Both the position numbers and the translations under genes were made by a program. A stretch of DNA of 64,000 bases. Origin: Sipunculus nudus (lineage: Eukaryota; Annelida; Sipuncula; Golfingiida; Sipunculidae). Location: assembly GCA_026874595.1 (NCBI GenBank), contig CM049309.1:26105033-26169032 (forward strand), written 5' to 3'. The notes beneath the pieces were generated by a model. The model did no database searches, was not told where the DNA came from, and saw nothing but the letters and a program-made list of their open reading frames with translations. Shown here piece by piece: positions 5,899 to 63,316 of the stretch (positions within the stretch are counted from its first letter, which is position 1; every line of letters starts with the position of its first letter).

Positions 5899-7066
5899 AT
5901 AGAATACGGGTAGTCAACAAGCGACTAAGTGTATCCACCTAAATCAGAGTGGAACGGGTGAAGTGAGGCATGGATTGCGTGGCTAGGGGAAATAGAGTGA
6001 AGTGTTGCATATTAGCATGGATGTCTGCAGCCAAATTGTGTATGTAGGTTGCGCCACCTACCACAAAATCAAGAAAGCCGTCCAAGTTGTATACATATGC
6101 AAAATTTAAGGCAGATAAGTCAAACCACTACATGTATATGAGAGATTTTTGCCTTTGGCAGACAAACAGATGGACGCTGTGCAAAAATGGTTGCAGGTGG
6201 CGCCACCAGTTTTGCGTATGATAAAGAGCTATGTGAGAACTATACACATGCAAAACTTTGGCCCAATCGGTCAAACGGTTCCCAAGATATGAGCTTGGAT
6301 ATCTGCTGCATAAACTAGAATGTAGGTGGCGCCACCTGTCATAAAATCAAGAAAGCTGTCTGGGATGTATAAACCTGCAAAATTTTAGGCAGATATGTCA
6401 AACCACTGCCGAGATATGAGTGATTTTATCCCATGGCAGACAAATAGACAGGAGCTGTGCAAAAATAGCTGCAGGTGGCGCCACCAGTTTTGTGTATGAT
6501 AAAGAGCTATGTGAGATCTATACACATGCAAAATTTTGGCCCAATCAGTCAAACAGTTCCATAGATATGAGCTTGGATGTCTGCAGCGTAAACTTGAATG
6601 TAGGTGGCGCCACCTGTCATAAAATCAGAAAAGCCATCCAGGATGTATAGGCATGCCGAATTTCAGGTGAATTAGTCTGCAGAGATATGAGTGATTTTAA
6701 CCCAAGGCAGACGAACAGATGGACACTGTGCAAACATGGTTGCAGGTGGCGCCACCTTTTTTTGTGAATGTTATAAAGCTCTCCAAGGGCTACATTTGTG
6801 CAAAAAATTTTTCCTGATTGGTCAAACGGTTCCCGAGATATGTGGGTTTATGTGTGGAAACAGACGCATAAACGGACCCAGAGCGCAGAGGAAAGGTCAG
6901 AGGTCAAAACAAAATCGGGGCACAGCAGTTCACATGTGACCCGAACATAATCCTGGGTTATGTAAAATTTCGCCCAGCGGTTATGGAGGAGTTCTCCGGA
7001 CACCTACGCTGCCGCGGCGGCGGTCTGAAAACATAGTATCGGCAAAACTCTGTTTTGGCGGATACA
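5899..7066 (+). mobile_element. R4 element, near full length (about 1.17 kb)
   Basis: The 5' end at about 5899 reads AGAATACGGG, then TAGTC-loop-GACTA, then GTGTATCCACC. The 3' end is a CGGCGGCGG stretch, then a hairpin at 7036-7065 with arms GTATCGGCAAAAC and GTTTTGGCGGATAC. The interior alternates two phrase blocks, each holding the perfect palindrome GGTGGCGCCACC, at 6196, 6325, 6474, 6603 and 6745. Blocks are about 278 bp apart (6196 to 6474; 6325 to 6603), so the core is a dimeric tandem repeat. No protein is encoded. Non-autonomous Helentron-like status is inferred. Confidence 0.75.
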
Positions 7067-7391
7067 ATGATGTCTGTAAAATACATATGTTCTGCCTACA
7101 AACCATATTGAGACTAATTTTTTAAACATTTTTTCACATTTGTCCCAATAAAACAATTAGAGAGTTGGTACATATGATCAAGAGGTAATATTTCCCAATC
7201 ATTGCAACTAAATCATAATAGTAATTAAAATTTACATTCTTGTTAAATTTAACTTTTTTTATTTAATTATACTTTTTTTAGGTATTAGGTTAGTCAAACA
7301 TTACGTAAGGGGATACCTATAATTGAATGATGATTATAAGTATACTCATCAGGTATATTTTTAAAGATAAGAAATTACTATCTCAGCTATA
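7067..7391 (+). mobile_element. AT-rich left flank of an R3 copy
   Basis: The last part ('gaaattactatctcagctat') matches R3 sequence at 22527-22545 and 36963-36985, so this is the left half of an R3 interrupted by the R1 insertion at 7392. The 5' terminal GACCCATGGGTC motif is not seen, so the copy is 5' truncated or diverged. No gene. Confidence 0.55.
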
Positions 7392-8958
7392 ACTAGATGT
7401 GTCAGAACGACACGAATGCCCCTGCCTGGGGCAAATTAGAAATATTTGTTAAATTTTGTAAAAAATTTTTTAAGTTCAGGAGGTGTCATATGGTCAAAAG
7501 TAGGTCAACAAGGGCAAAATGCAAACTCGATCTGTAACGGATCATTATCAAGCAACACAACAAAAATCAGGCCAGTATCTGCAGGCATTGTGAAAAAGTC
7601 CATACATGTGCATTTTTATAAAAATTTCTGTCTTTCATGATATTTTCTTTGTTCAGGATCTGTCATATGGTCAAAAATAGGTCAACTGGGAAAAAACACA
7701 AACTCGATCTGTTAGTGGTCATTATGCGCCCACAGACCAAACATTAGGCCAGTATCTGTAAGCATTGCATTGCGAAACTAGAATATTAGCAAAAGCTGAT
7801 AATCGGTTATAAATTTAAATTGGAGAGGTATGTACCATGTTTCATAACAATCCACCAAATTGTTCCTGAGATATAAGCTTCTGAGTGTTTTTGTATTATC
7901 AGCTCTAAAACAAAGAAAAATAGGTCAAGGTCACCCATATTTGCATTTGACCAAGATTTTGTTGATAAACATCTTCACTGATGAAATAAAATTCCAACGG
8001 TGAATCCTTTTAATAGAGATATCCTGCTCACAAGACCAAAATTGAAAAATCCGATAAAAATTGATTAAAAAATGAGAAATTGCAGGTGGTGCCACCGAAA
8101 TTGTGCAGCACGTACAGACCATCAGTCCCAATGATCATAGTAAGTTTTGTGAAAATCCACACAATGGTTCCTGAGATATAAGCCTCTGAGTGTTTTTCTA
8201 TAATCAGCTCTAAAATGTAAAGGTAAAAGTCAACAGACGCGGGCCGGACGGACGCCAGATGGACAGACAGACGGACGGACAGCTTGGGTGACGACAATAG
8301 CCCATCAGCCTATGAGCTGAGGGCTAAAAAACAGCTGTACATGTACATTTGACATGAAAATTTATATTTTTCATGAAATTTTCTATGTTTTGGAGCCGTA
8401 AAACAATCAAAAGTATGTCAACCGGGACGAAACACGAACTCGATCTGTAACTGGTCATTATCTGGCCACACATAAAAAATCAGGGTGGTATCTGCAGGCA
8501 TTGCGGAAAAAAAGTCTGTACATATGCACTTGTTATGAAAATTTCTATTTTTCATGAAACTTTCTATGTTCAGGAGCAGTCAAATGGTCAAAAGTAGGTC
8601 AATTGAGACAAAACAATAACTCGATCTGTAACTGGTCATTATCTGCCCACACACCAAAAATCAAGCCAATACCTGCCGGCATTGTGAAAAATAGTCCGTA
8701 CATGTTTATTTGTCATGAAAATTTCTATTTTTCATGAAATTTTCTAAGTTTAGGAGTCGTAAAACGGTCAAAATTTGGTCAACCGGGACGAAACGCGAAC
8801 TCGACCTGTAACTGGTCATTATCTGCCCACACACCCAAAATCAGGCCAATATCTGCAGGCATTGCGAAAAACAGTACGTACAACTGTTTGATTTCGGAAG
8901 GACGGAAGGACGGACATGGGTAAAACTATATTCCCCCGCCACTTTGTGGTGGGGGCAT
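7392..8958 (+). mobile_element. R1 element copy A, carrying a nested R2
   Basis: Starts ACTAGAT, then hairpin GTGTC-AGAAC-GACAC, then TGCCCC..GGGGCA. Ends with a GGAAGGACGG microsatellite, then a hairpin at 8931-8957 (CCCCCGCCAC-TTT-GTGGTGGGGG), then CATAA. Between are two diverged and about three better-conserved copies of a 180-bp monomer ('aactcgatctgtaactggtc', 'tctgcaggcattgcg', 'tttttcatgaaattttct'), plus R2 at 7778-8326. The outer flanks join across the element to match the uninterrupted R3 sequence near 22545-22580, so the insertion limits are supported by paralogous empty sites. Confidence 0.82.
7778..8326 (+). mobile_element. R2 element nested inside R1 copy A
   Basis: Begins ACTAGAATATTAGC in an A-run of the R1 monomer ('gcattgcgaaa'). 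Ends with GACGGACGGACAGC and a hairpin at 8298-8326 (TAGCCC..TCAGC..GCTGA.GGGCTA), then an A-run. The R1 monomer resumes immediately ('gtacatgtacattt'). It contains 'aggtcaaggtcaccc' and a ggtggtgccacc core. The start in this copy lacks the GCCCTCAGCC block present in the longer copies, so it is internally shortened. Confidence 0.8.
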
Positions 8959-10060
8959 AATAAAATACTGAAATTAATATTCAATTTCACTCCTTGTGAA
9001 AAGAATGCAGTTATAAAAAGAATAAAGGAATACCTCATCTTATGAACATCCACACTTTTACAGCTATACATCACTTTGTGGACAAAATTAAATGTGCACT
9101 TTAATTATTGTAACCCACTGTGATAGAATACAAAATCCAAAATGCAGCAATAATCTAAAATAAGAATGAATCAAATACAGACAATTATAACATTCATCAA
9201 GTTTATGCATGATTCTGGGGGGGGGGGATGCAGGGCTGAGGGGAAGGTAAGCCAAGCTGAGCCAAGGCAGCTGCCTTAAATGGGTTACAAAACACAGGTG
9301 AGGGTTGCATAACTCACTGTACTGGCCAGTGGCTTGATGTAAACAACACTTGAAATGGTGTCTCAAAACCTGAATAAAAGCTCCTTTTTTCAATCAATTC
9401 CTTTGAAATTTCAGATTTTAAAAGATTAAATCCATAAGTAAACATGCTTAGAAAATTAAATCAACAGTGCATACAGAAAAAAAGTGCCATGGCTAAATTT
9501 GGACAAAATTTAAGGTACTGATTTTTTATTTATGCTAATAACTTGAAAAATTTGCAAAATTCAGATCTAATATTGGGTATACAATTGTATCTTGATTATA
9601 TAAAGTTACATCCCTGAAAAAAAAGTTTCCAGCTTTAATAATTTTCATGTAAAGTGAGTAAATATATTTCCTGATTTTTAACAAAGTGATATAAGTTTGG
9701 GCCCATAACTTCAATTAATTACACAACACTGATCTAATTTCTGCAATGAACATAGGAAATATATAGAGGAATGGTTACACTAAATATGATCAATATTAGA
9801 TCAGTGGTTTTGATACCATTTAGGTTATTACAGTGAAACAATGGGTTTTTAATGGAAAATTGAGATTATTCCTTAATATCTCAAAGGAATGAAATGCTAG
9901 TGACCTAATTTTAGGTAAGGAAGGAGATTTTGGGGACATCTAACTGTTTGCAAAATTTTGGATTTGTAGGTCAAACGGTTTCAAAATGTGCCCTGTTAGC
10001 GGACGGAAGGATGACGGACAAAGGACCATGACTATAGCTCAGATGACTATAGCTCAGCTA
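8959..10060 (+). mobile_element. Right part of an R3 element (3' end)
   Basis: Follows the R3 order: 'gaacatccacacttt', 'cactttgtggacaaaattaaatgtgcacttt', a G-run at 9217-9227, the 'gtgccatggc..aaatttggacaaaatttaagg' block, 'gggcccataactt' and 'ccttaatatctcaaaggaa'. It ends with 'gcggacggaagg' and ACTATAGCTCAGATGAC..TAGCTCAGCTA. It is the continuation of the copy interrupted at 7392. Confidence 0.75.
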
Positions 10061-13980: not shown

Positions 13981-15438
13981 AACAAGTGACCCATGGGTCA
14001 TGACCATCAGCTGACCAGCATGCCATTTTAGTCTAACATCACAACAGGAATTTCATCATCTGAAAATCATCTTGAGATTTACTGCAGATGTGATCTTGAC
14101 ATTTGACCTTCTGACACCACAGTCAACAGGGTTCCTGCATAAGTGATGTGTCACACATGTGTAGACTGAATTCAATCATAAATGGTCCATACTGGTTGTA
14201 CAAGAAAAGAATATGATAAAAGTCAGTTTTCTCCTTTGAGAGGTCATCATGACCTAGATTCAGGCTTCCAAGAACATTAAGCAAGAACCTCCCTGGATGT
14301 TGGGTATAAAGATTTTAAGCCCAACAGATACAATTTTCTTGATGCTCAAATCATGTTCTTCTACTTTAGCTCGCAGAACACAGTTCATGTTTCTAATTTC
14401 ATGTTTCCATGGACATTTACCCAGAAACTCCCTGAATGTCACATTTGTCTTTGTGCCCCTTCTGACTCTGTGTGCTAAAAATCATATTTCTGACCAATAG
14501 CGCAAAGAATAAAGGTCACCATGACTTAATTTCACGTGGTCCCCCCCCCCCCCCCCCCCCGAATCTCACATCAGAAGATTATAGGCCAAATGGATACAAT
14601 TTGTGCCCTGTTTGACTTTCTGGATGCTCAAATTATGTTTTTGTCCAATAGCCCGCAGAATATAGGTCATCATTACGTTATTTAAGCGTACTGAGGGGAT
14701 TTGCTTAGGATCTCTCTGGATATATGGTAAGAAGTTTCTAGGTCTGACGGATACAATTTGTGCCCTGTCTGGGTGCTAAAAATTATGTTTTTGACCAGTT
14801 GCTCCCAGAATTATATGTCATCATGAATTAGTTTCAGGTTTCCAAGAAAATCAGCCTAGAACCTCTCTGGATGTTATGTCAGAAGATTCTGGGCCAAACG
14901 GATACAATTTGAGCCCAGTCGACTTTCAGGTTGCTCAAATAACATTTTGACTACAGCTCCCTGAATATAGGTCATACCGAACTGGAGTATTCTAACAAAC
15001 TTGAGAGAGATTGATTCAGGGATTATTTCTGTGAAATACTGAACAAATTGTCTGGATGGTTTTGGAGAAGAAGATAGCTCCAGCCATTTCTGAAATTGTA
15101 ATTTTAGTATGCTTTTTTTTGGCTAAATGATGAAATCAAACTGGAACTCATTCAAAGAGAGACTGTTTGACCTGGGATCATTTCTGTAATATATATGTGA
15201 CAATTTGGCTGAACAGTTTCGGAAAAGATTTTGAAAGGTTTTTTAACTTTTTCCCTACAAAATTAAAGTAAATGCAAATAGTAAAGATAAGCTCAATCCG
15301 ATAGAGTTGTTACAGATGGCAGATTTTTTGTATAAAATTTGGTGATGCCTAGCTCCTGCAGTTTTTGAGATAGTATGGGTGAACATAAGGACGGAAGACG
15401 ATGGACAACAGTACACCAAATATATAAGCTCAAAGGTT
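13981..15438 (+). mobile_element. Composite R3/R5-like element with degenerate tandem core
   Basis: Opens with ACAAGTGACCCATGGGTCATGACC, the R3-type 5' end (palindrome GACCCATGGGTC split here for brevity). It closes at about 15438 with an R5-type 3' end ('aagctcaaaggtttgctaaaa') after 'gacggaagacgatgg'. The core 14230-14985 holds about 4.5 degenerate units of roughly 160 bp ('aggtcatcatgac', 'cctctctggatgtta', 'gatacaatttgtgcc', 'gatgctcaaat'). A C20 run sits at 14541-14560. No protein is encoded. Whether this is one element or neighbours is uncertain. Confidence 0.5.
14541..14560. repeat. Poly-C run (20 bases)
   Basis: Twenty uninterrupted C residues inside a degenerate repeat unit. The length is probably polymorphic or affected by sequencing error. 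Confidence 0.95.
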
Positions 15439-16264: not shown

Positions 16265-16266
16265 TA

Positions 16267-20504: not shown

Positions 20505-22176
20505 ACTAGATGTGTCAGAACCACACGAATGCCCCCGCCTGGGGCAAATTAGAAACATTTGATAAATTTTGTAAAAAATTTTTTAAGTTCAGGAGGTGTC
20601 GTATGGTCAAAAGTAGGTCAACAAGGGCAAAATGCAAACTCGATCTGTAATGGGTCATTATCAAGCAACACACCAAAAATCAGGCCAGTATCTGCAGGCA
20701 TTGTGAAAAAAGTCCATACATGTGCATTTTTTTATAAAAATTTCTGTCTTTCATGAAATTTTCTATGTTCAGGATCTGTCATATGGTCAAAATTGGTCAA
20801 CTGGGATGAAACTGGAACTTGATCTGTAAGTGGTCTTTATGCGCCCACAGACCAAACATTAGGCCAGTATCTGTAAGCATTGCATTGCAAAACTAGAATA
20901 TTAGCAAAAGCTGATAATCAGTTATAAATTTAAATTGGAGAGGTATGTACCATGTTTCATAACAGTTCCACCAAATGCTTCCTGAGAAATAAGCTCTTAA
21001 GTTTTTTTCTATACTAAGCTCTGTGACCTTGAAAAGTAGGTCAAGATCTTTGAACTTGACCAAGATTTTGTAAATATCATGCAATAGCACAGAAGAAATG
21101 AAGTTTCTGTGTTGAATACCTTTGGAGATATCCTGCACAAAAGGCCAAAATAGAAAAATCCGATAAAAAAAATGTAGGTGGTGCCACCAAAATTGTGCAG
21201 CACGCACAAACCATCATTCCAAATGATCATAGTAAGTTTTGTGAAAATCCACACAATGGTTCCTGAGATATAAGCTTCTGAGTGTTTTTCTATAATCAGC
21301 TCTAAAATGTTGAAAAATGGGTCAAGGTCACCCATCTTCCAACTTGACCAAGATTTTATTGATATACATCATCACTGATGAAATAAAATTCCAACGGTGA
21401 ATCCTTTTTAGAGAATTCCCGCTCACAAGGTAAAGTTAACAGACGAGGGACGGACAGACGCCGGACAGACAGACGGACGGACAGACTGACAGCTTGGGTT
21501 ACGACAATAGCCAATCAGCCTATGAGCTGAGGGCTAAAAATGGCTGTACATGTACATTTGTCATGAAAATTTATATTTTTCATGAAATTTTCTATGTTTA
21601 GGAGCCATAAAACAATCAAAAGTAAGTCAACCTGGACGAAACGCGAACTCGATCTGTAACTGGTCATTATCTGCCCACACATAAAAAATCAGGGCGGTAT
21701 CTGCAGGCATTGCGGAAAAAAGTCCTTACATTTGCATTTGTTATGAAAATTTCTATTTTTCATGAAATTTCATGAAACTTTCTATGTCCAGGAGCAATCA
21801 AATGGTCAAAAGTAGGTCAACTAGGACAAAACAAGAACACGATCTGTAACTGGTCATTATCTGCCCACACACCAAAAATCAGGCCCGTATCTGCAGGCAT
21901 TGCGAAAAAAAGTCTGTACATGTGCACTTGTCATGAAAATTTATATTTTTAATGAAATTTTCTATGTAAGGGCACCGTCAAATGGTCAAAAGTAGGTCAA
22001 CTGGGACAAAACGTGAACTCGATCTGTAACTGGTCATTATCTGCCCACACACCAAAAATCAGGCCAATATCTGCAGGCATTGCGAAAAAAACTCTGTACA
22101 ACTGTTTGATTTCGGAATGATGGAAGGACGGACATTGGTAAAACTATATGCCACGGCCACTTTGTGGCGGGGGCAT
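20505..22176 (+). mobile_element. R1 element copy B, carrying a nested R2
   Basis: Starts ACTAGATGTGTCAGAACCAC, then TGCCCCCGCC-TGGGGCA. Ends with a hairpin at 22149-22175 (TGCCACGGCCAC-TTT-GTGGCGGGGGCA) preceded by 'ggaaggacggac'. The 180-bp monomers flank the R2 at 20892-21536. Outside the element, 'tttataaatttgtaattaa' and 'aaatctgaaaatataagttaaaat' are contiguous at 31258-31300 in another R3 copy, giving a clear paralogous empty site. No target duplication beyond A/T is visible. Confidence 0.88.
20892..21536 (+). mobile_element. R2 element nested inside R1 copy B
   Basis: Starts ACTAGAATATTAGC and ends with 'gacagacagacggacggaca' and hairpin 21508-21536 (TAGCC..TCAGC..GCTGA.GGGCTA) plus A-run. 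It occupies the same monomer and phase of R1 as the R2 in copy A ('ctgtaagcattgcattgc' just before it), so the R1+R2 pair moved or was duplicated as one unit. Confidence 0.85.
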
Positions 22177-23918
22177 AAAAATCTGAAAATATAAGTTAAA
22201 ATATCAGATTTCTAAGTTGCAATCATTATATATCCAGAGTGTAGCTCATATTCGATCATATTATGCATACACATATATTTAATTATTTTTAAATCACAAA
22301 TGTTTAAACTGAATTTAAAAAGAAAATAATGCCACATCATTGCATCTTCAAGATTATCCCTTGAAACACTTTTGAAATGTTTTGCACATTGGAGTTTTTA
22401 GTACATGCTTAATTTTATTCACTGAAATAAAATAAAAGATTAAGTAAATTTGATAAAATAAAATCATCTTTTCAAATAAAGTATATATACTGTTGGTTGA
22501 ATGAGGGACAAAAAATATCATTGTGCTAATTACTATCTCAGCTATAATTTATTACTGGAATAATAGTCAATTTCACACCAGAAGTTTTTACTCTTCTGAA
22601 GTAAGGAATTACTTATCTGATGAATATCCACACTTTCATAGCAATACACCACTTTGTGGACACAATTAAATGTGCACTTTAATCATTATAACCCTGGTGG
22701 TACAATACAAAATCTAAAATGTAGCATACCCAAGAATAACAATGAATAAAATACAAAAAATTATAACATTCATCTAGTTAAATGCACCATCTGGGGGGGG
22801 GGGAGTGCAGGGCAGAGGGGAAGCCTGCTAATAGTTGCCAAGCAGAGCCAAGGCAGGCTGCCTGGGGTAGGTTACATAATGCAAGTGAAGGCTGTACTAC
22901 CAGGTCGGCTAGATGTAAACAACACTTGACATGGTGTATGAAAACTTGAATAAAAGCTACACTTTTCAATCAATTCCTTTGAAATTTCAGATTTTAAAAG
23001 ATTAAATCCTTATGTATATATGCTGTGAAACTTAAATCAACAATGCTTACAGGGAAAAAACGTGCCATTGCCAAAATTGGACAAAATTTAGGGACTGATT
23101 TTTTATTTATGCTAATAACTTGAAAAATTTGCAAAATTCAGATCTAATTTTGGATAAACAACTGAATCTTAATCAAATAAAGTTATATTCCTGAAAAAAA
23201 GTCTCCAGCCTCAGCACTTCTCAGGTTAAGTGGGTAAATATATTTCCAATTTTTTTTAAATTGCATTATATTTGGGCCCATAACTTCAAAGCAACATGCA
23301 ACACTGACCTAATTTTTTGGTATGTTGATAGAAAATTTATGGAAGAATATGAATACTAAATATGATCAATAACAGATTAGGGTTTTGAAATAAGGCAGCC
23401 TTGAAGTGTAACAATGGCTTTATTATGGAAAACGGAGGTTTTTCCTTAATATCGCGAAGGAACAAAGTTATAGTGACCAAATTTTCGGTATGGTAGGAGA
23501 TTTTAGGGAGATCTAACAGTATGCAAAATTTTGGATTCGTAGGTCCAATGGTTTCAAAACGTGCCCTGTTAATGGACAGCCGGACGGCCGGACAACGGAC
23601 AAAGCACCACGACTATAGCTCAGATGACTTATAGTTAGCTGAGCTAAAAATATCATTTGTTCAGTAATGGTGATATATGGAATCTGAACACTGATGAACT
23701 TAACAATCTTAATGAATCATTTTGATAATCATTTTATTCAAATATATCAACCATAATCTTTGTTGAAACAAAACTGACACAAGTGGGCACTAAGCTCTTG
23801 TGGCCTTCTTTGTTGTTGTAAGTTTATCTTGATATATAATCACAGGCGAGTCATACTCAGTAGTTATTTTTAAATCAGTTTTCACTCAATTGTAAATAAA
23901 TGTCTTATTGTTTTACAG

Positions 23919-28990: not shown

Positions 28991-30259
28991 AACAAGGGAA
29001 CCATGGGTCTTGGTGCTCAGCTGATTGTGACAGTTATAACTGCATCACCATAGATTTTTTGAAGTTGCAATAAAAATACTATCCTTAGGATATAAATACA
29101 GAATGCGGAATTAAATTCAATGGTGCTAAAGGGACTGGTGGGAGTTACAGCACCTCTGCATATCCATAAAGGATAAAATTTAATTTAAATGAAATTATCT
29201 TTAAATATTTAAAAACAGGCAGAGAGATGAAAAACAAAGCAAATAACTTTAATTTCCATTCTACTGAGACAGGAAAATAATGAACAAATATTTGCATTAG
29301 ATCTTATTTTTTCTTTTGTCAAGTCATTTTTTTAAGTTTATAAATTTTACTATATAATTACAGTATATCATATATATCTGAATATTTAAATTGGTGTTAG
29401 GGTAGGGCCCATGAAAATATGTGTATGTTTATTACAGCAGGGGTGTTCTGCAAGTGCTGCATCACTAATAAGGTTACCTAGGCAAGGCTGTAGTGAGCAA
29501 GAGTGGGGTCTTGGATATACAAAATGAAAACTTGAATACATTAGTGCATCTGAAAAACTTCAATAATTAGAATAAGTTTTAGGCTTTTACTTTCAAATTT
29601 TCAGAATTCAACAGATTAAATCCACATGAATACCGACGGTGAAAAATAAATTAAATATACTTACAAGAAAAAAAATGTGCCATGGTCAAATTTGGGCAAA
29701 ATTTAAGGTACCAATTTTACATTTTAGCTAATATTTAAAAAAAAAATTTTTTGATCTACTAATTTTGATTATACAATTAAATTTTGATTAATTAAAATTA
29801 TATTACTGAAAAAAAGTCCCTAGCTTTAACATTTTTTGTGTTAAGTGACCAAATATTTTTCCTGATTTTTACAAAGTGCAATATGTTTGGGCCCATAACT
29901 TTTTTAAATTATATAATACAGACCTAATTTCTGGCATGTTCAAAGTAACTATATAGAGGAATATTTATGGTAAATATGAGGAGAAACAGATGAGTGATTT
30001 TGATATTAGGCAGTCCTGAAGTGTGAAAATAGGTTTTTAATAAAAAAAATGGAGGTTTTTCCTTAATTTCTCAAATGAACGAAGTCGCAAAGACCCAGTT
30101 TGCGGCTTGATAGGAGATCCTGGGGACATCTAACATTATGCCGAATTTTGGATTTTTAGGTCTAAGGGTTTCAAAATGTGCGACATCTACTGACGGAAGG
30201 ATGGACAGACATCAATGGACCACAACTATAGCTCAGATGACTTATAGTCAGCTGAGCTA
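28991..30259 (+). mobile_element. R3 element, complete (about 1.27 kb)
   Basis: 5' ACAAGGGAACCATGGGTC with GCTCAGCTGA at 29014-29023. 3' 'gacggaaggatggacagac' and hairpin 30229-30259 (TAGCTCAG.TGAC-TTATA-GTCAGCTGAGCTA). The interior shows the R3 body, including 'gggcccataactttttta' and 'aggtttttccttaatttctcaaa'. Only about 20 bases separate it from the next R3 start at 30279, so they are head to tail. Confidence 0.82.
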
Positions 30260-30278
30260 AAAATGCTTAAAAATAAAA

Positions 30279-33200: not shown

Positions 33201-33434
33201 TTTCCTTAATATCTCAAAGGAACGAAGTCCTATTGACCCAATTTTTGGCATGGTAGGAGATTATGGGGACATCTAACTGTATGCCGAAATTCAGATTCGT
33301 AGGTCCAACGGTGTCGAAACGTGCCAGTCTTACGGACGGACATCCAGACGGACGGACGGACGGACAGACAGACGGACCGACGACGGACAATGGACCATGA
33401 CTTTAGCTCAGATGACTTATAGTCAGCTGAGCTA
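30279..33434 (+). mobile_element. R3 composite, complete outer ends (about 3.2 kb)
   Basis: 5' ACAAGGGACCCATGGGTC and CGCTCAGCTGA; 3' hairpin 33404-33434 with a long GACGGACGGACAGACAG-type run before it. The body occurs twice: 31020-32600 matches copy a, lacking its 3' end, and 32700-33434 is a second body with its own 3' end. It is therefore either two truncated elements or an internal duplication. It carries the uninterrupted sequences that serve as empty sites for R1 copy B (31258-31300) and R1 copy A (31625-31665). Confidence 0.75.
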
Positions 33435-33437
33435 AAA

Positions 33438-36910: not shown

Positions 36911-38063
36911 CTAAAATAAAGTATACACACTTTTGGATGAATGAGGGACAAACAATATTGTGCTAATGACTATCTCAGCTATAATTTATAACTGGAATTA
37001 ATAGTCAATTTCACACCTGGTGAAGTTTTTACTATTCTGAAGTAAGGAATCCCTTATCTGATGAACATCCACACTTTCATAGCAATCCACTTGTGGACAC
37101 AATTAAATGTGCACACTAATCATTGTAACCCTGGTGGTACAATAGAAAATCTAAAATGTAGCAAAACCTAGAATAAGAATGAATCAAATACAGAAAATTA
37201 TAACATTCATCTAGTTTATGCACCATCTGGGGGAGGGGGTGGAGTGCAGGGCAGAGGGGAAGCCTGCTAATAGTGGCCAAGCTGATCCTAGGCAAGCTGC
37301 CTAGAGTGGGTTACATAACACAAGTGAAGGCTGTACTTCTAGGTGGGCTAGAAGTAAACAACACTTGACATGGTGTATGAAAACTTCAATAAAAGCTACT
37401 CTTTTCAATCAATTCCTTTGAAATTTCAGATTTTAAAAGATTAAATCCTTATGTATTTATGCTGTGAAAATTAAATCAACAGGAAAAAAAAAGTGTTGTT
37501 ATCAAAGTTGGACAAAATTTAAAGTATTGAATTTTTATTTATGCTAATAACTTGAACATTTTGTAAAATTCAGATTTAATTTTGGGTAAACAATTGAATC
37601 TTGATTAAGTAAAGTTATATCCCTGAAAAAGTCTCCAGCTTCAGCAAATCTCATGTCAAGTAAATATATTTTCTGATTTTTAAAAAAATTGCATTATATT
37701 TAGGCCCATAACTTCAAAGCAATATGTAATACTGACCTAATTTTTGGAAGGTTCATAGAAAATGTATGGAAGAATATGCATATTAAATATGATCAAAAAC
37801 AGAGTGGTTTTAAAATAACTCAGCCTTGAAGTGTAACAATGGCTTTGTTATGGATAATGGAGGTTTTTCCTTAATATATCAAAGGAACAAAGTCCTAGTG
37901 ACCCAATTTTCAGTATGGAAAGAGATTTTAGGGACATCTAACTGTTTGCAAAATTTTGGATTCGTAGGTCAAACGATTTCAAAATGTGCCCTCTTAACGG
38001 ACTGACAGACAAGGGACACAGGACCACGACTATAGCTCAGATGACTTATAGTCAGCCGAGCTA
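36911..38063 (+). mobile_element. R3 element copy c, 5' truncated
   Basis: Begins abruptly at the junction with R1 ('aaataaagtatacacac') and contains the full R3 right part: 'ctatctcagctataatttat', 'gaacatccacacttt', the G-rich core, 'gggcccataacttcaaa'-like text and 'ccttaatatatcaaaggaa'. It ends 'actgacagacaagggac' and TAGCTCAG.TGAC-TTATA-GTCAGCCGAGCTA. Confidence 0.75.
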
Positions 38064-42787: not shown

Positions 42788-44141
42788 AGGCATTGAGGAA
42801 AAAAAGTCAGTACATATGCATTTGTTATGAAAATTTATATTTTTCATGAAACTTTCTATGTTCAGGAGCAGTCAAATGGTCAAAAGTAGGTCAACTGAGA
42901 CAAAACAAGAACTCGATCTGTAACTGGTCATTATCTGCCTACACACCAAAAATCAGGCCCATATCTGCAAGCACTGCGAAAAAAAGTCCATACATGTGCA
43001 CCTTTTTTATGAAATTTTCTATGTTAGAGCACCGTCAAACGGTCAAAAATAGGTCAACTGGGACAAAACGTGAACTCCATCTGTAACTGGTCAATATCTG
43101 CGGATACACCAAAATTCAGGCAAATATCTGCAGGCATTGCGAAAAAACGTCTGTACATGTGTATTTGTCATGAAATTTCATATTTTTCATGGAATTTTCT
43201 ATGTTCAGGAGCCGTAAAACGGTCAAAAGTAAGTCAACCAGGACGAAACGCGAACTCGATCTGTAACTGGTCTATATCTGCCCACACACCAAAAATTAGG
43301 CCAATATCTGCAGGCATTGCGAAAAAAAGTCCGTACATGTGTATCTGTCATGAATATTTCTATTTTTCATGAAAATTTCTAAGTTTAAGAGCCGTAAAAC
43401 GGTCAAAAGTAGGTCAACCAGGACGAAACACGGACTCGATCTGTAACTGGTCTATATCTGTCCACACACCAAAAATCACGCAAATATCTGCAGGCACTGA
43501 GAAAAAAAAAAACGTACATGTGTATTTGTCATGAAATTTCATATTTTTCATGAAATTTTCTATGTTCAGGAGCTGTAAAACGGTCAAAAGTAGGTCAACC
43601 AGGACGACATGCGAACTCGATCTGTAACTGGTCTGTATCTGCTCACACACCAAAAATCAGGCCAATATCTGCAGGCATTGCGAAAAAAAAGTCTGTACAT
43701 GTGTATCTGTCATGAATATTTCTATTTTTCATGAAATTTTCTAAGTTTAGGAGCCCTCAAACGGTCAAAAGTAGGTCAACCAGGACGAAACACGAACTCG
43801 ATCTGTAACTGGTCTATATCTGCCCACACACCAAAAATCAGGCCAATATCTGCAGGCATTGCGAAAAAAAGTCCGTACATGTGTATCTGTCATGAATATT
43901 TCTATTTTTCATGAAAGTTTCTAAGTTTAGGAGCCGTAAAACGGTCAAAAGTAGGTCAACGGGGACGAAACGCGAACTCGATCTGTAACTGGTCTATATC
44001 TGCCCACACACCAAAAATCAGGCCAATATCTGCAGGCATTGCGAAAAAAAGTCGACAACTGTTTCATTTCGGAATGACGGAAGGACGGAATGACGGACAT
44101 GGGTAAAACTATATGCCCCGGCCACTTTGTGGCGGGGGCAT
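42788..44141 (+). mobile_element. R1 element copy D, 5' truncated, with 3' hairpin
   Basis: About seven 180-bp monomers in exact register: the 'gcaggcattgcgaaaa' phrase recurs at 43321, 43681, 43861 and 44041, with a variant at 43501. They are followed by 'ggaaggacggaatgacgg' and the hairpin 44114-44140 (TGCCCCGGCCAC-TTT-GTGGCGGGGGCA). There is no 5' end; it begins within a monomer at 'ggcattgag'. No R2 is nested in it. Confidence 0.85.
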
Positions 44142-44149
44142 AAAAATTC

Positions 44150-48796: not shown

Positions 48797-48990
48797 TGAA
48801 CCTGAGTACAAGCACACATTACACAAACATCACTTCTGAAATACTGGCATGGGTGTACTTATAAACAACACAAAAACGATTGAAGGTGGGGCCACCTGAG
48901 TCTTATGTATGAGAAAGGCATCGAAGATGTATGGAGGTGCAAAAATTCAGGCAGATACTTCAAACCACAGCTATGTGCACAGATGCATGA
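48797..48990 (+). mobile_element. R6/R4-related relic
   Basis: Matches 44155-44340 ('aacctgagtacaagca', 'acaaacatcacttctgaaatactggcat') and contains 'aaggtggggccacctga', a variant of the 12-bp palindrome. Confidence 0.5.
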
Positions 48991-50520
48991 ACCCATGGGT
49001 CACTGTGCTCAGCTGAAGTTGACCTTGAAGTTAAAAATAATATCAAATGGAGTCTAAGAGGAAAAGGTAATATAGGTCATAGCTGGTTGACATGATTGGT
49101 TTGTATTGATGAGTAAGAAATTGTTGTCAATAATGTTTTGTGACCAAACCATGCAGTTCCTAATGTTAAAATTTAAGGTTGTGAGCAGTTATTGAACATA
49201 AGATGTATATTAAATTACCATGATCATTGGTTGGCTTTTGATAAACTGTTGACAGTTCAGTAGTTTACACACTTGTTTAATTGGATCAATTTTTATAATA
49301 TATATATATTATCAAATATATGTAATTTTTATGTTATAAAATGTATACAGTTAAAATATAACTAATGTCCTCAGTCAACAGGTGCAAGGATGTAGTGGTG
49401 GGGATATGGGGCAAGGGGGGGGAGGGGATTAAATAATGGGAGTTACAACTTAATTCAACAATGCTTACAGGATAAAATAGTTTAATCCCAATAACTTAAT
49501 ATATAAAAAAGGACAGCTGATAATTTATGAAGTTTCAGTTAATGTTAGTATTAGATCCTCTTTTTTTATCACATCATTTTTTTTATAATAAGTTTATATT
49601 TCTATAAATTTTCATTATAACATATATATCTGAATATAAAAGTTGATTCATAATTCTAAATTGCATCATTATAAATCACAATGTTCTCAGATAACACCAC
49701 ATCATGCATACAAATGAATTTATTTTATTACCACAAAAATATATGTTTTAAATTTGCAAAACAATAAATATCTAAAAATGATACTTGATTCAGATTTCAC
49801 AATTTTAAATTGTTTCTTTATTTTCCCATAATTTGCATGATATTTTATAAATTTATGCATACTGAAGGGTTTAATTATATTTTAATTTGTTAAAAGAATT
49901 TAAATGAAAATTGATTTCTTTAAAAATACAACATGAACACAACATGGCATCTTCTGGATTACTCCTTAAATTACTTTTTCAAGAGAAATTTTGTATACTG
50001 GAGTGGAAACAACAATTAAGGAAATACAGTGCAAAAATAACAATTATAGCATAACACCTGGTGGAGAGGGTTGCAGTTGATATGAGAATAACTGTATACC
50101 TGTCACAGCAGGGGATCTCCCCCAGTGACCTGTAACACATCACCAAACCTGGCACAGCAGAGTTCCAGTGACCAGGAGTGGTCTACCTGCAGCTGGACAA
50201 AGCAAGAGCCTCAAGAAAAAAATAACAAGCATATTTTACAACCTTTCATTTTCAAATTTCAGATTTTAACAGATTAATACTAATGTTTGCATGCTGTGAA
50301 AATTAAATCAACAGTTATCACAGGAAAAAAATGTGCCATGGTCAAAGTTGGGCAATATCTAAGGTACTTAGTTTATTTTTACGCTTATTACTTAAAAAAA
50401 TTTCAAAATTCAGATCTAATTTTGGGTATACAATTGAATCTTAATTAAACAAAGTTATATACTTGGAAAAAAGTCTCTAGCTTCAATAGTTTTCATGATA
50501 AATGACTAAATATTGATATT
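48990..50520 (+). mobile_element. R3 element, 3' truncated
   Basis: The 5' end GAACCCATGGGTCACTGTGCTCAGCTGA lies around 48988-49015 (split motif GACCCATGGGTC plus GCTCAGCTGA). The R3 body is recognisable at about 50040-50520 ('cagattttaacagatta', 'gtgccatggtcaaagttgggcaa', 'gatctaattttgggtatacaattgaatctt'). The GACR run and 3' hairpin are missing. Confidence 0.6.
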
Positions 50521-51560: not shown

Positions 51561-53197
51561 GGAAAACCACACTTAACTTTAAGACTTACTTTTTTTTAAC
51601 CTTATCACTAATGTTCACATTAGACTTATCTGTCTTCAGGCTAGGGGTGCTTGATTAAATAAATTATGCATTAAAATAAATGTAGGATTTTATTCTGTCT
51701 TGTCACTCATCACAGAAACATTATTTTTCTTTGGTTTATAGATGTCTGAGAAATGTTGATGAAATGTAAATGAACCATGGCTACCATAACCAAGTCATCA
51801 GATTTTGTCTCAACATTTCTACACATCAAATTCATATTGATATGTCATCCACAGATTACACCATTCTGAGTCAACTGAGAAATCTATTTGCTGAAAGGTT
51901 GTCATCCAAAACATGTGGTAAACTGCTGAAAGGTGTACATTGAGTTATTAAGGGACAGTGAACTAAATACCTGTTTTTAACTGTTGCTGTAGGCAGCCTA
52001 TGGCAAGCAAGTTCCAATTAGTGAAGCAAAGTTTTTCTCCAGCCGTACATGTTACCTTTACCATTCTGGAAGTTTAGAAAGACATTAATGGTTCATTTGA
52101 CCATACCTGATGCTGATAATTACTCATGATGGTGTCTGGACAGTGGAACTGAGTGGTCTTAGAATGATGGCCAAACAAGCACACATAGCAAGCACTCCCA
52201 ACATTTAGTGGACTGTTAACACTGAATGTCACAGCAGAGGTGGCCAGTAAATGCCAACTTCACCATCAACAAATGACACCACATAACCAAATATGGATGA
52301 CTTCAAAGACTACAGGATAAGGTCATGTAATAACACAGCAAGTTCCATTCCATCTGGTTAACACTTCTGACTGATGGTTCCTAACAAACATATGGAACAA
52401 ACAGCATCAAGTTTCCTGACAGACTGATTGATCTATTTCTAAGCATTTTTCCCACTAACAGACATTGATCGTGCGGTGAGCAGGATTATATATCACTTAT
52501 ATGCCAATTTAAGGCTATTTGACAACATTTGTACACCAATAAAATTATAAAATTACAAATTGACTTAGAACTGCTGTTGAAAGCTGCTGCTCTGTATGGA
52601 CAAGGTTTTATGCTTTGTCAGCAGACATTACAAGCATCCAGCAAATAAATGCAAAGGGCAGCATTAATAAATAAGCAACCTCACTTCACTGTAGTAGACA
52701 CCAGCTAGGCCACATATGAGCTGAGCACAGGGGTCCACAGTAATTTGGACAAGCTGTGGTTGAATATTAATTGAACAAGATCCATCCCATGGTGACAACA
52801 TGATCATGTGACAGCCTAATGAGGCCATGTTCATTCCAATCGTAGCCACCCAGCTGATCAGGCAGAATTATCCTTTAATAGACTCTCAGCTAGGAAAAGT
52901 TTCCCTGAGTGGTGTTAACACCCATTTCATGATCTAATCCTCCTGGCATAAAGGTACAAAATATCTGATTAACTGGTAAGATGTAAAGTTTTCACCCTCA
53001 GGGTCTAGTACTGGAATCAAGTCAAGTCTAGAACTCTGCCTGCCAACTTTGCTGGGAATTCCAATGCACTATAGTTCAGACAGGAATTCTAATGTAAAGT
53101 AGTTTACATATAAATTGGAATTCCAAAGCAAATCTGCAACAGTGTAAATTATTTTAATAGTTTACAAAATTCTTATATTTTGTCAGGTATCCACAAA
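51561..53197. other. No recognisable gene
   Basis: AT-rich to mixed sequence with no recurring phrases. The ORF 52664-52849 (minus) has no family. A patch near 53060-53130 repeats 'ggaattc' words. Confidence 0.45.
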
Positions 53198-53710
53198 CTA
53201 GAATATTAGCAGAAGCTGACAAAGGCCTCAGCCAAAAGAACAGTGTTTATGGGTGGTTACTGGGATGCACAATAATTACCAAAACATCTGTTCTCACGTG
53301 GATGTGTATCTGTCCATGTGTCTCTAGTTAAAGTTTTAAATTTGAATTATAGATGCATGTGGTACCCTTGCAAGTCTGTTGACAGAAGTGAAACAGATCT
53401 GTACTGTGTAGGGGAATATCTGTAAAACAAGTTGTCTTAAATTAGCAACATGTGTGAGCACAAATTACCCCTTTTTGTACCCAAGCAGCAGTTACAGACC
53501 AGAGAGGCCAATAATCACATCATGTTTCTTAATGATCCAATTCTGAGAAAGAAGCTAGTTAGTTTTTTCTAAATATCGCTGAGACCATGAAAAGTAGGTC
53601 AATGTGACCCATATTCAAACTTGACTGAGATTTTGTGCATATGCATCTGCCATGAAGAAATGAAGCATCTATGTTTAATTCTTTTCAAATATCCCGCTCA
53701 CAGGGTAAAA
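53198..53710 (+). mobile_element. R2 element, 3' truncated
   Basis: Starts ACTAGAATATTAGCAGAAGC with GGCCTCAGCC, then 'ctgttctcacgtggatgtgtatctgt', and ends after 'atcccgctcacagggtaaaagtt'. The GACR run and hairpin that should follow are absent. The sequence at 53720-53800 ('ctggacagcctgcttccatc') is unrelated. Confidence 0.7.
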
Positions 53711-54049
53711 GTTGGAAGCTGGACAGCCTGCTTCCATCAAGATGCACATGTGGAAAATTTAACGCAAATCTGCCCATGCAAACCATTGCAGAAAAAGGCT
53801 AAAAATAAGGTAACAGACACCAAAAGAGTTGATACATGGATGGATGCCAACAGAGGTGAAGTAAGGACCAATGGTTCTCAACTCTCAGCTGAATGTGTCT
53901 GTTAGGATATTTTATGAGGTTTTCCAAAATGTATGTCTTATAACTTTCACCTTTGACCTCAAAATAAATAGTGTTCTTCACATTTTGGTAGGTAACTACA
54001 CATGAAAGTTAGAAAGTTTTAGATGACAATTTTGGAATTAAATGCATAA

Positions 54050-56564: not shown

Positions 56565-56791
56565 AAATATGATCAATAAATGCATCACTAGATAACATCA
56601 CATCTAAATACTGACAATGCTGTGATTTGATGGGAGAAAAAAATACAGGTGTCACTACAAGTCTTCTGCAACTGATGCAACTAGTCAATTTCATTAAACA
56701 TACCTGGTTTCAGAACACCAGGTGAAACCACAGCTGAGAAACTGGCATGATTGCTGTCATTTGACATTCTCAAATATAAAAAAAAATAAAA

Positions 56792-57588
56792 ACTAGAATA
56801 TCAGCAGAAGCTGCCAAAAGCCCTCAGCCAAAAGAACAGTGTTTATAGGTAATAACAGTAACAAGAATGAAATATTTGTTCTCACATGGATGTATATCTG
56901 TACATGTCTCAGTTATAAATTTAAACTGCAGAGGTATGTAGTACTTTTGCAAGTATGGTAAGACTGATCTCATGCAGGACTTAGAGATCATCAAGCTTAT
57001 TGTTATACAATGTTTCATAACAATCCACCCAGTGGCTCCTGAGAAATAAGCTCCTAAGTTTTTTTTTTATTCTAAGCTCTGTGACCTTGAAAAGTAGGTC
57101 AAGGTCACCCAACTTAAAACTTGACCAAGATTTTGTTAATATGCATCAGCACTGAAGAAATGAAGTTCCTGTGTTGAATACCTTTGGCAATATCCTGTTG
57201 ACAAGGCCCCAGTAGAAAAATCCGAAAAAAATTCATTAAAAATCAGAAATTGTAGGTGGCGCCCCAAAACTTCTGCGTCAGGTACAGACCATCAGTCCCA
57301 ATGACCATAGTAAGTTTTTGTGAAAATCCACCCATTGGTTCCTGAGAAATAAGCTCCAAAGTTCTTTTCTATTCTAAGCTCTTTGACCTTAAAAAGTAAT
57401 TCAAGGTCACCCATCTTCGAACTTGAACAAGATTTTGTCGATATACATCTTCGCCAAGGAAATAAAATTCCTACAGAGAATCCTTTTAGAGATATCCCAC
57501 TCACAAGGTAAAAGTTAACGGATGCCGGATGTACGGACGGACAGCTTGGGTGACGACAATAGCCCATCAGTCTTAGGGCTGAGTGCTA
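56792..57588 (+). mobile_element. R2 element, complete, stand-alone (about 0.8 kb)
   Basis: 5' ACTAGAATATCAGCAGAAGC and AAAGCCCTCAGCC. 3' 'gatgtacggacggacagc' and hairpin 57560-57588 (TAGCCC.TCAG..GGGCTGAGTGCTA). The interior has two related halves, each with 'cctgagaaataagctc..aagtt', 'aggtcaaggtcaccca', 'gaacttga.caagattttgt' and 'aatcctttt.gagatatcc', so the body is a degenerate dimer. It lies in an A-rich site and gives the reference length for the nested copies. Confidence 0.82.
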
Positions 57589-57599
57589 AGAAAAAGCAG

Positions 57600-58535: not shown

Positions 58536-58539
58536 TACT

Positions 58540-58832
58540 TCAAACCTCAACAAATATCCTAAATTTCCACTAATCTGACAAAGTTCAAGGTCATCCATAT
58601 CAGAACTACTCCCATAACATGGATGAAACAATAGGTGTATCAAATTTAAGGAAACAAACATGCAGTACTCTAAAATTTATGAGGTTCATATTTATCCTTA
58701 ATTACAACAACTTGGACTTTCAAGATCAAGGTCAACAGTTTCCGAACCTATCAGACTTGGTTAAAACCATTTGTGTATCAAATACTGAAAGGAAATATGC
58801 CACACTTTAAAACTTATGGGATTTACCATATA
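58540..58832. repeat. Degenerate dimer with aaggtca words
   Basis: 'aaagttcaaggtcatccatatcag' and 'gatcaaggtcaacagtttccgaacctatcag', each followed by 'tgtatcaaat', indicate about two units of roughly 160 bp. No ends identified. Confidence 0.4.
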
Positions 58833-59606
58833 AACTAGAATACAGGTAGTCGACAAGCGACTACGTGTATCCACCAAGATTAGGTGGACGGGTTAAGTGA
58901 GGCATGGATTGAGTGGCAAGGGGGGAGTTACGTGTTACATATTAGAATGGATGTCTGCCACGTAAACATGATTGTAGGTGGCTCCACATGTTATTTGAAT
59001 GAGAAACTATCCCAGATGTATACACATGCCAAATTTCAGGTAATTTGGTCAAACCACTGCAGAGATATGAATGGTTTTAACCAAAGGCAGACAAACAGAT
59101 GGATGCTGTGCAAAAATGGCTGCAGGTGGCACCACCATTTTTGTGTGTTATTAAGCTATCCAAGGGCTAAATTTGTGTGAAATTTTTTTCCTGATTGGTC
59201 AAACGGTTCCCGAGATATGAGCTTGGATGTCTGCAGCGTGAACGTGAATGTAGGTGGCGCCACCTGTCATAAAATCAAGAAAGCTATCTAGGATGTATAC
59301 ATATGCCAAATTAAAGGTGAATTAGTCAAACCACTGCAGATATATGAGTGACTTTAACCCAAGGCAGATGAACAGATGGACACAGTGCAAAAATGGCTTC
59401 AGGTGGCGCCACCATTTTTTGTGTATGTTATAAAGCTATCCAAGGACTAGGCTGGTTAGGCACCAGTTCACATGTGACCCGATAATTGGTGTAAGTTTTG
59501 AAAAAATCCGTCCAGTAGTCTCAGAGGAGTTCACCGGAAACTAACGCGGCGGCGGAACCCGGTCAAAAACATAGTATCCGCAAAACTTCGTTTTGGCGGA
59601 TACAAT
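58833..59606 (+). mobile_element. R4 element, complete ends (about 0.77 kb)
   Basis: 5' ACTAGAATACAG, hairpin GTAGTC (58846-58851) with GACTAC (58859-58864), GTGTATCCACC with its own CCACC..GGTGG hairpin. 3' 'gcggcggcgg' then a hairpin at 59574-59603 (GTATCCGCAAAAC-TTC-GTTTTGGCGGATAC). Perfect GGTGGCGCCACC at 59253 and 59402. Shorter than the 5.9 kb copy by about one dimeric unit. Confidence 0.8.
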
Positions 59607-60300
59607 TATGTATTTTAGCTGATTTGACCTTGAACATCAAGGTCAATGTCACTGGTTTTCCAAACCCATCCGACAACTTACCATCTACCACCTTTAATTT
59701 TTGAGTTGCTTTCTAGATAATTACATCCATATAATATTTTGATTTTTTTATACCAAATAAGGAAATATTCAAAGTTAATGTCATCCTCACATTGAAGGTC
59801 ATGACCCTAATTTTAAAAAGGATTCATCTTACAACCAATATCTATGCATGTATGTGCATAATATGAAAGAAATCTGTCCACTAGTTTTTGACTTATAAAG
59901 ATCCCACTACCATAGAGTTGCGAAGATGGGGGTACTAGTAGGCATTAATACAAGAAAAGGATAATAGGTGGCACCCCCAGTCTTCCATACAAGACATATC
60001 CATCCAAGATCTTCAGTCAACCTAATTTTTGGAGGAATCCATGCAATTTTTCTTGAGATATTTAAGATTTTTTGTGATATATTTATGAAAACCTGACCCA
60101 TTCAAGGTCAAAGTCACTCCCCTGGTAAAGGCCATGACCTCATTTTATACAGGCTTCGTCCTTTTACCCATACATATACACATGTAAAGTTTTAAAAAGA
60201 TCCATGAAATATTTTTAGTCATCTCGCTCATAAAATTTTCAGCGGCAGTGGCAGGACCAACTTTAATTGGGGATACAATAAAGTTGGCGCCCCCAGACCA
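59607..60300 (+). mobile_element. R6 unit with degenerate 3' end
   Basis: 'gaaggtcatgacccta', 'tgaaagaaatctgtcc.ctagtttttgacttat', 'aggtggcacccccagtcttcc' and 'ttcttgagatatttaag' follow the 324-bp R6 order. It ends 'agcggcagtggcagg', then CCAACTTTAATTGGGGATACAA, the R4/R6 3' end with its first arm damaged. Confidence 0.6.
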
Positions 60301-60459
60301 AAGCAGTATTTAAACATCTGAACCAATGTGAACCAGTGATAGTCCTGTATGAAGGTGTAGGAGTGGAGCATTCCAAGCATTAAAGGCGCATAATAACATC
60401 AAATGTATTAAACTGTAAGCCTGTTGAAGCATATAAATCAGTAGGATGGTCCTTTGACT

Positions 60460-61862: not shown

Positions 61863-62007
61863 ACCATTTGAGAGATTTATGATCAGGCCTAAAATAAAGG
61901 AAATTTTTTTATATTTCTAACAAGAGCACAAGGACAGTGCATCAAAAGTGTAACAGTCTCTCAAGTTCAAGAGTACAGAACTATGTCAAATGTGGCAAGT
62001 TTATTCA

Positions 62008-63316
62008 ACAAGTGACCCAGGGGTCATGATGCTCAGCTGATCTCTGACACTGAGATATTCTATCAACTTAGACTGCTGTCATTTTAGTAAGTTTGCAATT
62101 GTGTCTGTGGCAGTTGTAAAGAATCTATTAAATGGATTTTCCATGGTGAATGCAGTTTTTCTTTTCCAGCCCAGGACACTAATATGAGCCTGATTTTCTT
62201 AGTGCTAAAATCACACAAAAGGTTACATTACTCAAAGAAAATGCATTAAAAAATTTAAATTTCACCACCAGTTATGCACAGTTGAAAGGGCCATCCATGA
62301 TCATCAAGCTTACTAAATTTCAAAATATACCAACTGGGTGACCATTACTGAGATATCTCATTTAAAGTTTGAATTTTAGGTATAAATCAGATGCTATATC
62401 TGTATTCTGCTATGTGTCTGCAGCTGTGAAGAACAAATGGACCAGATTTTCTTCAAATTTTCCATGATGATACAGACGTGTTAATGATGCATGTTAGCTG
62501 GGCTACAATTGTGACATTCTCCATCCCTTTTCTAAGTCTATAAAAAGTATTAAAAATGAAAAAAAAATAGAATTTTAGATGGCACCACCAGTCTTGCAAA
62601 GCTGTAGGGGCTATATCCATGATCAATAAGTTTACCAAATATCAGCAAGATCCATGCAATCATCACTGAGTTATTTTATCTAAAGTATGAATTTCACACA
62701 ACAGCCCAAAACCTTAATTTTCACAATTGTGTTTGCAACAGTTCTGAAGAACTGGCTGGGCCAATTTTCTTCAATTTTTTGCATGGTAGCAATGTCGTAT
62801 GTGCAGAAGATGCACATCATCTTTGTTTTATGGTTTGGTGCACTGATCTATGCAATCATAACTTAGATATTTTATCTAAAGTGAAGTATGAATTTCATAC
62901 ATCAACAGCTGAAAATGTTAAAATTTTGTAATTGTGTCCGCAAAAGCTCTGAAGAACTGGCTGGGCCGATTGTCTTTAATAATTGCATGGTATCAATGTT
63001 ATATGTGCAGTTGATGCAAAATGTTTTAGTTTAGGGTTGAGTGCAAAATTTTTGTTTTGCTGCCAAGAACACTAACAAAAGTCTTATTTTCTAAGTGCTA
63101 AAAACATACAAACATACAACATGCATAACTCTGTGACACTGACCTAATCTTAACTATGGAAGGAGATTTACCAAGGACCCACTTTGTTATCAAATAAAAA
63201 CTTTCTAGATCAAACATGAACAATTTGTGCCTAGTTAACCGACAGACAAACTGCCAGAAGGACAATGGACAATGGGTGATCACTATAGGTCAGATGACCT
63301 TTAGTCAGCTGAGCTA
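62008..63316 (+). mobile_element. R3 element, complete (about 1.3 kb)
   Basis: 5' ACAAGTGACCCAGGGGTC and ATGCTCAGCTGA. 3' 'aaggacaatggac' and hairpin 63286-63316 (TAGGTCAG.TGACC-TT-TAGTCAGCTGAGCTA) then an A-run. The interior has degenerate units with 'gaagaactggctgggcc.atttcttcaat' and 'tgagatat.ttatctaaagt'. It differs strongly from the R3 bodies at 20-38 kb while keeping the same ends. Confidence 0.75.

Follow-up and report, generated by a model that had tools for sequence, protein, structure and literature searches.

HINE and DINE-1 elements, which are non-autonomous Helentrons, share a recognisable layout: subterminal inverted repeats (subTIRs), an inverse repeat and a microsatellite at one end, and a palindrome at the other (PMC4067079, PMC7492417). 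Both this layout and the partnership between HINEs and Helentrons are already published. For the oyster Crassostrea gigas, ten autonomous elements are reported, not one of which could be connected with the HINEs (PMC7492417), and in a later oyster assembly subTIRs were reported in 257 of 751 Helitron-like elements, termed possible intermediates (PMC7992393). Searches of open-access papers, including passages of PMC11136912 and PMC10294476, showed no further HINE-Helentron links.

Here we analyse four repeat families, R1 to R4, in a stretch of 64,000 nucleotides (C4:26105033-26169032, hereafter the window) of the 1.43-Gb genome of Sipunculus nudus. An original prediction, made from the letters of the window, held that these families carry one end grammar on different bodies, and that a single Helentron-like machinery, reading structure more than sequence, moves them all. 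The common grammar is borne out, as is the assignment to Helentron/DINE-1 elements, since the ends, the insertion site and linked elements encoding Rep, helicase and endonuclease all fit. The single machinery is not supported for R1 and R3, which in the pieces examined match separate Helentron lineages with endonucleases ~34% identical. We consider R1-R4 to be non-autonomous Helentrons (HINEs, DINE-1-like) with an inherited layout and with ends that would be recognised by cognate Reps, R2 and R4 either having lost or unsampled partners or being moved in trans by a related Helentron, and put the probability of this reading at about 0.9.

End layout of the four families

All four families combine inverse-complement subterminal motifs with a small palindrome at one edge, a hairpin and microsatellite at the other, and an A-run edge. 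On the strand used in the original prediction, their ends are:

R1: 5' ACTAGATGTGTCRGAACGACAC..GCCCCCGCC; 3' GGCGGGGGC
R2: 5' ACTAGAATATYAGCAGAAGCTGA..GCCCTCAGCC; 3' GGCTGAGGGC
R3: 5' ACAAGKGACCCATGGGTC..GCTCAGCTGA; 3' TCAGCTGAGC
R4: 5' ACTAGAATACRGGTAGTC..GACTACGTGTATCCACC; 3' GGCGGATAC

Motifs, hairpins and microsatellites lie where they had been described, and the exact end patterns exceed chance. Counted across the genome with the reversed pattern as control, they occur 3,695 times for R1 (control 456), and 1,320 times for R2, 20,096 times for R3 and 6,222 times for R4 (control 0 in each case). In the window itself, profiles made from window copies gave 37 end hits that do not overlap, the seeds among them, and all of these lie on one strand. 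This count leaves out weaker, overlapping hits that the palindromic ends produce on the opposite strand. Neither Rfam, at gathering scores, nor a tRNA scan yielded a match in the window.

Judged by eye, the subTIRs are exact inverse complements of 9 bp in R1 and 10 bp in R2 and R3. In R4 they measure 9 bp, and the 3' motif of the window copies has one mismatch to the 5' motif, a GTATCCGCC version being present in the genome; the predicted complementarity of the 3' arm is thus exact in three families. Read on the opposite strand, R1-R4 start with a T run, a subTIR, an inverse repeat of the subTIR and a short microsatellite, followed by tandem cores, a second subTIR, the palindrome and CTWGT before T. 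This is the published HINE orientation, so that the predicted layout stands with its direction reversed. In this orientation, R1-R3 have the hairpin and GTCY-like microsatellite of HINE 5' ends (GACR in the original prediction), whereas R4 has the hairpin but a CCG microsatellite (CGG on the other strand); the palindrome near the 3' end is present.

The proposed distinction between an ACTAGA edge (R1, R2, R4) and an ACAAGK edge (R3) is loose, and R3-type ends adjoining Helentron genes show either ACAAG or ACTAG. Within each family, the sequence of the subterminal motif and of the edge is conserved, so that a machinery reading structure more than sequence is not demonstrated. The R3-type palindrome comes in two forms, GACCCATGGGTC and GGCCCATGGGCC (GACC..GGTC and GGCC..GGCC), and mixed pairs occur in none of 32 ends read by eye and picked with a pattern permitting either base on each side. 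These matched two-sided forms hint at a structural constraint besides sequence; since the split tracks sublineage, it may reflect one event.

R1-R4 resemble HINE/DINE-1 elements in end layout, in T-run insertion without duplication, and, for R1 and R3, in having partners with Rep, helicase and endonuclease (PMC4067079). They differ in their shorter subTIRs (9-10 bp by eye, compared with 12-15 bp in mite HINEs; PMC4067079), in the CGG microsatellite of R4, and in that R2 and R4 have no detected partner. The Cg_HINE elements of C. gigas likewise enclose short satellite-like arrays as their cores, fall into several unrelated families within the genome and have GTCY-type microsatellites; in this comparison by description, no autonomous element could be linked to the oyster HINEs (PMC7492417), whereas R1 and R3 are tied to separate Helentrons. 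The pearl elements of bivalves (CvA, CvE, CvG), with arms around ~160-bp tandem cores, can be likened by description to R1, with its 180-bp core repeat (PMC7492417, PMC11136912). Canonical Helitrons have 5' TC and 3' CTRR and insert between A and T, whereas the elements described here end in CTWGT before T and insert at A/T runs.

Helentrons bearing R1 or R3 ends

A genome search with PF14214 (Helitron_like_N) gave at least 143 matches (195 candidates, 150 scored), in frames of up to 2,426 amino acids. The sample searched for partners comprised 72 pieces: seven Rep loci of ~12.5 kb (three extended upstream), the DNA downstream of 40 more Rep matches, and that downstream of 25 endonuclease matches. 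It takes in 47 Rep matches out of at least 143 and 25 endonuclease matches out of the 150 listed, 150 candidates having been scored in each search. Each piece was checked for the four palindrome-side ends, and its lineage was set by the best endonuclease match.

Of the 27 pieces of lineage C/D/E, 20 carry an R3-type end past the endonuclease on the coding strand (4/4 in sublineage E, 9/14 in D, 7/9 in C), as against one with such an end on the other strand, and R1 ends occur in none of the 27. At lineage H, represented by three loci with the endonuclease inside the piece and five chosen via endonuclease matches, an R1-type end follows at six of the eight loci (all but L060 and L063) and an R3 end at none. 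A further 21 pieces are without an endonuclease. Ten of these were chosen just downstream of endonuclease matches, and eight carry an R3-type end on the coding strand (L070 also has one opposite); among the other 11, R3-type ends were present in L045 (coding strand) and L027 (one per strand). Endonuclease and end are separated by a similar length within each sublineage, ~1.0 kb for C-like pieces, ~0.5 kb for the majority of D-like and ~0.15 kb for the majority of E-like ones, with L048, L071 and L086 as exceptions, and the DNA past CTWGT differs among loci apart from L073 and L078, which are alike.

Two Helentrons are bounded by both R1 ends, at C3 ~41766494-41778497 and C5 ~20300944-20313328, with ends ~12.0 and 12.4 kb apart and lineage H endonucleases that are 98% alike. 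When oriented, both have the hairpin end upstream (L065 position 572, L066 position 5) and the palindrome end downstream (L031 position 771, L035 position 804), and R1 core repeats can be seen by eye inside both. The C3 copy matches Pfam DUF6570, Helitron_like_N and PIF1, and that at C5 matches Exo_endo_phos_2. By family, these two are the predicted partners of R1.

For R3, locus C has an open frame of 2,342 amino acids, preceded at 6-7 kb by R3 core and R3 hairpin ends and followed at 1 kb by an R3 palindrome end. Locus D, with Pfam matches to DUF6570, Helitron_like_N, PIF1 and Exo_endo_phos_2 and a Herpes_teg_N match near the N terminus, has a degenerate R3 hairpin end ~6 kb upstream, and locus E has an R3 palindrome end. 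Because R3 is common, chance could account for the upstream link taken by itself; the strong link lies downstream. R1 and R3 therefore share their ends with elements encoding Rep, PIF1 helicase and endonuclease, as HINEs do with their partners, and Rep-helicase elements with matching ends, which the original prediction proposed to look for in the assembly, are present for both, as different elements.

Lineage A (A, B, F, G and relatives; L001-L004, L011-L014), a third group of Helentrons, has frames of up to 2,235-2,426 amino acids. None of the four R ends occurs in its 16 pieces, and its termini were not identified in the 12.5-12.6 kb read. In L051, a palindrome and TTGTT lie ~1 kb past a lineage-A-like endonuclease.

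Insertion sites and competing explanations

The copies in the window are as follows, with the strand given in the published HINE orientation, opposite to that of the original prediction.

7392..8964, minus: R1 HINE copy with nested R2 (end profiles R1_3 7430-7389, R1_5 8964-8905; sequence)
20505..22182, minus: R1 HINE copy with nested R2 (R1_3 20543-20502, R1_5 22182-22123)
34630..36957 (end approximate), minus: R1 copy containing a nested R2 and an array of the 180-bp core (R1_3 34668-34627; arrays); hairpin end not found by end profiles
42788..44147 (start approximate), minus: R1 copy, 180-bp core and hairpin end (R1_5 44147-44088; array); ACTAGA end not found by end profiles
7775..8330, minus: R2 inside R1, its ACTAGA end having lost the subterminal motif (end profiles; junctions)
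20890..21540, minus: R2 inside R1, its ACTAGA end likewise having lost the subterminal motif (end profiles; junctions)
34797..35526, minus: R2 nested in R1, both ends (end profiles; junctions)
53195..53760 (other end approximate), minus: R2 copy, ACTAGA end only (R2_3 53236-53195)
56790..57591, minus: R2 copy, both ends (end profiles; sequence)
28992..30261, minus: R3 ends 1.3 kb apart, treated as a single copy (R3_3 29024-28992, R3_5 30261-30206)
30279..33436, minus: R3 ends flanking a stretch, putative single element (R3_3 30311-30279, R3_5 33436-33380)
62008..63318, minus: R3 ends 1.3 kb apart, treated as a single copy (R3_3 62040-62008, R3_5 63318-63262)
48986..49234, minus: R3 end with R3-type Helentron endonuclease remnant on the same HINE strand (R3_3 49016-48986; remnant 49208-49053, 46% over 52 amino acids, E 5e-7, tblastn)
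13983..14872, minus: R3 end with Helentron-like stretch (end profile; sequence comparison; 14720-14872 matches the 3' region of R3-type Helentron C at 75% and lies about as far from the end as it does there)
5897..7115, minus: R4 copy, both ends, CGG microsatellite (R4_3 5941-5897, R4_5 7115-7045)
58832..59614, minus: R4 copy, both ends (R4_3 58877-58832, R4_5 59614-59583)

The nested junctions show that the target of R2 is the A run of the R1 repeat unit, with no duplication beyond the A's. Uninterrupted R1 units mostly run GCGA..AAAGTC, while interrupted units halt in the A run, give way to R2 and then continue, which reveals the empty site; among the four families it was read for R2 in R1 alone. 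Long target duplications, which the original prediction had named as evidence against itself, are absent from these insertions. The motif lost from the R2 copies at 7777 and 20892 is GCCCTCAGCC; because such subTIR-less versions lie in two of three R1 copies, R2 was probably carried with R1 as a passenger. For R3, an A stands ahead of ACAAG in all 20 copies read at the start of C1, and the first flank position is T in 30 of 32 R3-type ends by eye. The T-rich insertion without target duplication that is typical of HINEs is thus seen for R2 in the A run of R1, and an A/T-run edge at R3.

Other repeats also occupy the window. The 3' end of a further family, with a CGG microsatellite and a hairpin GTATCTCCAGAC..GTCTGGCGATAC, lies at 56500-56568 (second copy in L064), and an inverted pair of another repeat, with 88-93% matching segments on opposite strands, at 1300-1775 and 58042-58510. 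Minisatellites occupy 5009-5891 (57-bp unit, stopping at the edge of an R4 copy), 26029-27278 (54 bp), 38123-39427 (84 bp) and 41083-41620 (54 bp). At ~1.7-2.5 kb on the plus strand, open segments resemble by eye remnants of a long interspersed element (LINE) reverse transcriptase.

Miniature inverted-repeat transposable elements (MITEs) also show subterminal inverted repeats and small palindromes, and the four families might in principle be cut-and-paste MITEs or SINE-like elements with convergent ends. Cut-and-paste MITEs have terminal inverted repeats and target duplications, whereas the nested R2 junctions lack target duplications, the ends are asymmetric, and those of R1 and R3 are borne by Rep-helicase-endonuclease elements, which contradicts this origin for these two families and makes it extremely improbable overall. 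The single machinery of the original prediction, reading layout over sequence and co-mobilising all four families, would account for a common layout on unrelated motifs, for the abundance of R2 and R4 without a detected partner, for the local strand that the families have in common (see below) and for the matched variation of the R3-type palindrome. However, R1 and R3 ends track separate Helentron lineages and never each other's in the pieces examined, and ends are conserved in sequence within families; we therefore regard one machinery for all four as unlikely. In a narrower form, R1 and R3 would be moved by cognate Helentrons, and R2 and R4 in trans by R1-type or R3-type Helentrons. This is compatible with the failure to find R2 or R4 partners in 72 pieces, with the similarity of the R2 edge ACTAGAATA to the R1 edge ACTAGATG, and with the ~6 free letters between palindrome and subTIR, which hardly vary across the 100 listed R2 copies. 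Because the sample, as set out above, followed only 47 Rep and 25 endonuclease matches, the absence of partners is a weak argument, and the partners may be extinct; mobilisation in trans is a possibility to which we give rather less than even weight.

Several observations weigh against cognate Helentrons for each end type. R2 or R4 ends occur in none of the 72 pieces of this partial sample, and R2/R4 end patterns that exclude the HINE-specific bases beside the subTIR gave 2, 0, 3 and 37 hits. Both R1-bounded Helentrons have broken frames (several frames and a stop in the endonuclease of the C3 copy, a stop in the Rep match of the C5 copy). With the patterns used, the 4.9 kb downstream of locus D hold no R3 palindrome end, and the 6 kb fetched ahead of locus E hold no R3 hairpin end. 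The expected end is missing from seven of the 27 pieces in lineage C/D/E and from two of the eight loci in lineage H. Three of the 42 hits were fetched as partner candidates (L067, L068, L087) and rejected, being HINEs or deleted copies, none coding for a Helentron; the remaining 39 were judged from their printed letters. Since an R4-type end in L068 precedes a 278-bp core repeat, also found at 45782-46433 of the window, R4-type ends serve at least two different cores.

We nevertheless favour the reading of R1-R4 as non-autonomous Helentrons. Linkage suggests that a Helentron Rep would recognise its own subTIR and palindrome, and would mobilise HINEs with matching elements by rolling-circle transfer of one strand to a T run. 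The common layout would be inherited from a Helentron ancestor rather than being a sign of a single enzyme, and R2 and R4 would have lost or unsampled partners, or be moved in trans by a related Helentron.

Strand coherence and wider meaning

R1-R4 copies within ~50 kb of each other tend to lie on the same strand, across families. Strand data were taken from the first places listed for each end pattern, at the start of contig C1 (0-24 Mb). Nearest neighbours within 50 kb agreed in strand for R1-R1 (42/46), R3-R3 (90/94), R1 to R4 (32/39), R4 to R1 (37/46) and R1 to R3 (17/18), in each case with 0 of 2,000 shuffles, as well as for R4 to R3 (20/22; 1 of 2,000 shuffles) and weakly for R4-R4 (41/64; 126 of 2,000). 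The R3 places form one mostly plus stretch of 3.3 Mb (87 of 100 plus), where pairs are not independent. At C1 3.34-14.6 Mb, 69 of the 131 places of R1, R2 and R4 are on the plus strand. Adjacent places no more than 50 kb apart agreed there in 53 of 71 pairs (0 of 5,000 shuffles), and those of different families in 30 of 36; farther apart, agreement was 14/29 at 50-100 kb and 12/30 beyond 100 kb. At fetched loci, different-family pairs within 20 kb agreed in 4 of 4 cases, three of them at a single locus. Opposite-facing R3 ends in L027, L032, L045 and L070 argue against a general rule. In a control with a LINE motif, the strand agreed at 3 of 8 comparable places within 50 kb, too few to decide, and a tRNA-SINE pattern was too sparse for use.

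An imbalance of target A/T runs was rejected as the cause in the window, where runs of at least 4 number 319 versus 310 in non-repeated DNA. Segmental duplication was rejected for the first block, where the 120-bp flanks of 20 R3 copies are distinct except for six matching pairs; by eye, the matching flanks are R3 bodies and hence nested insertions. At short range, coherence can also be raised by nested insertions that enter A runs of the same strand. Strand-directed insertion or selection inside genes could be the cause. The scale of tens of kb suits genes at least as well as replication domains, and we consider selection or transcription within genes no less likely than an insertion bias linked to replication. 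By analogy, we tentatively suggest that the orientation of Helentron insertions might be set by local chromosomal polarity (replication-fork or transcription direction), with the transferred single strand joining a particular exposed strand. Copy orientation of the IS200/IS605 elements, which are bacterial and use a different enzyme, tracks chromosomal polarity (PMC5371812), and the Helentron copies described here have a local strand in common. No report of Helitron copy orientation was found among the open-access titles and abstract openings searched. If the suggestion is true, copies of any family would record chromosomal polarity, as IS200/IS605 copies do for the direction of bacterial replication, and strand coherence, if it is an insertion bias, would offer a handle on how Helentrons choose their target strand.

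Finally, the result for R1 and R3 is a HINE-to-Helentron link of the kind that the oyster study could not make. Because two families match separate long Helentrons, a shared end layout need not mean one machine, and a common HINE end grammar can reflect descent of the layout without a single enzyme.

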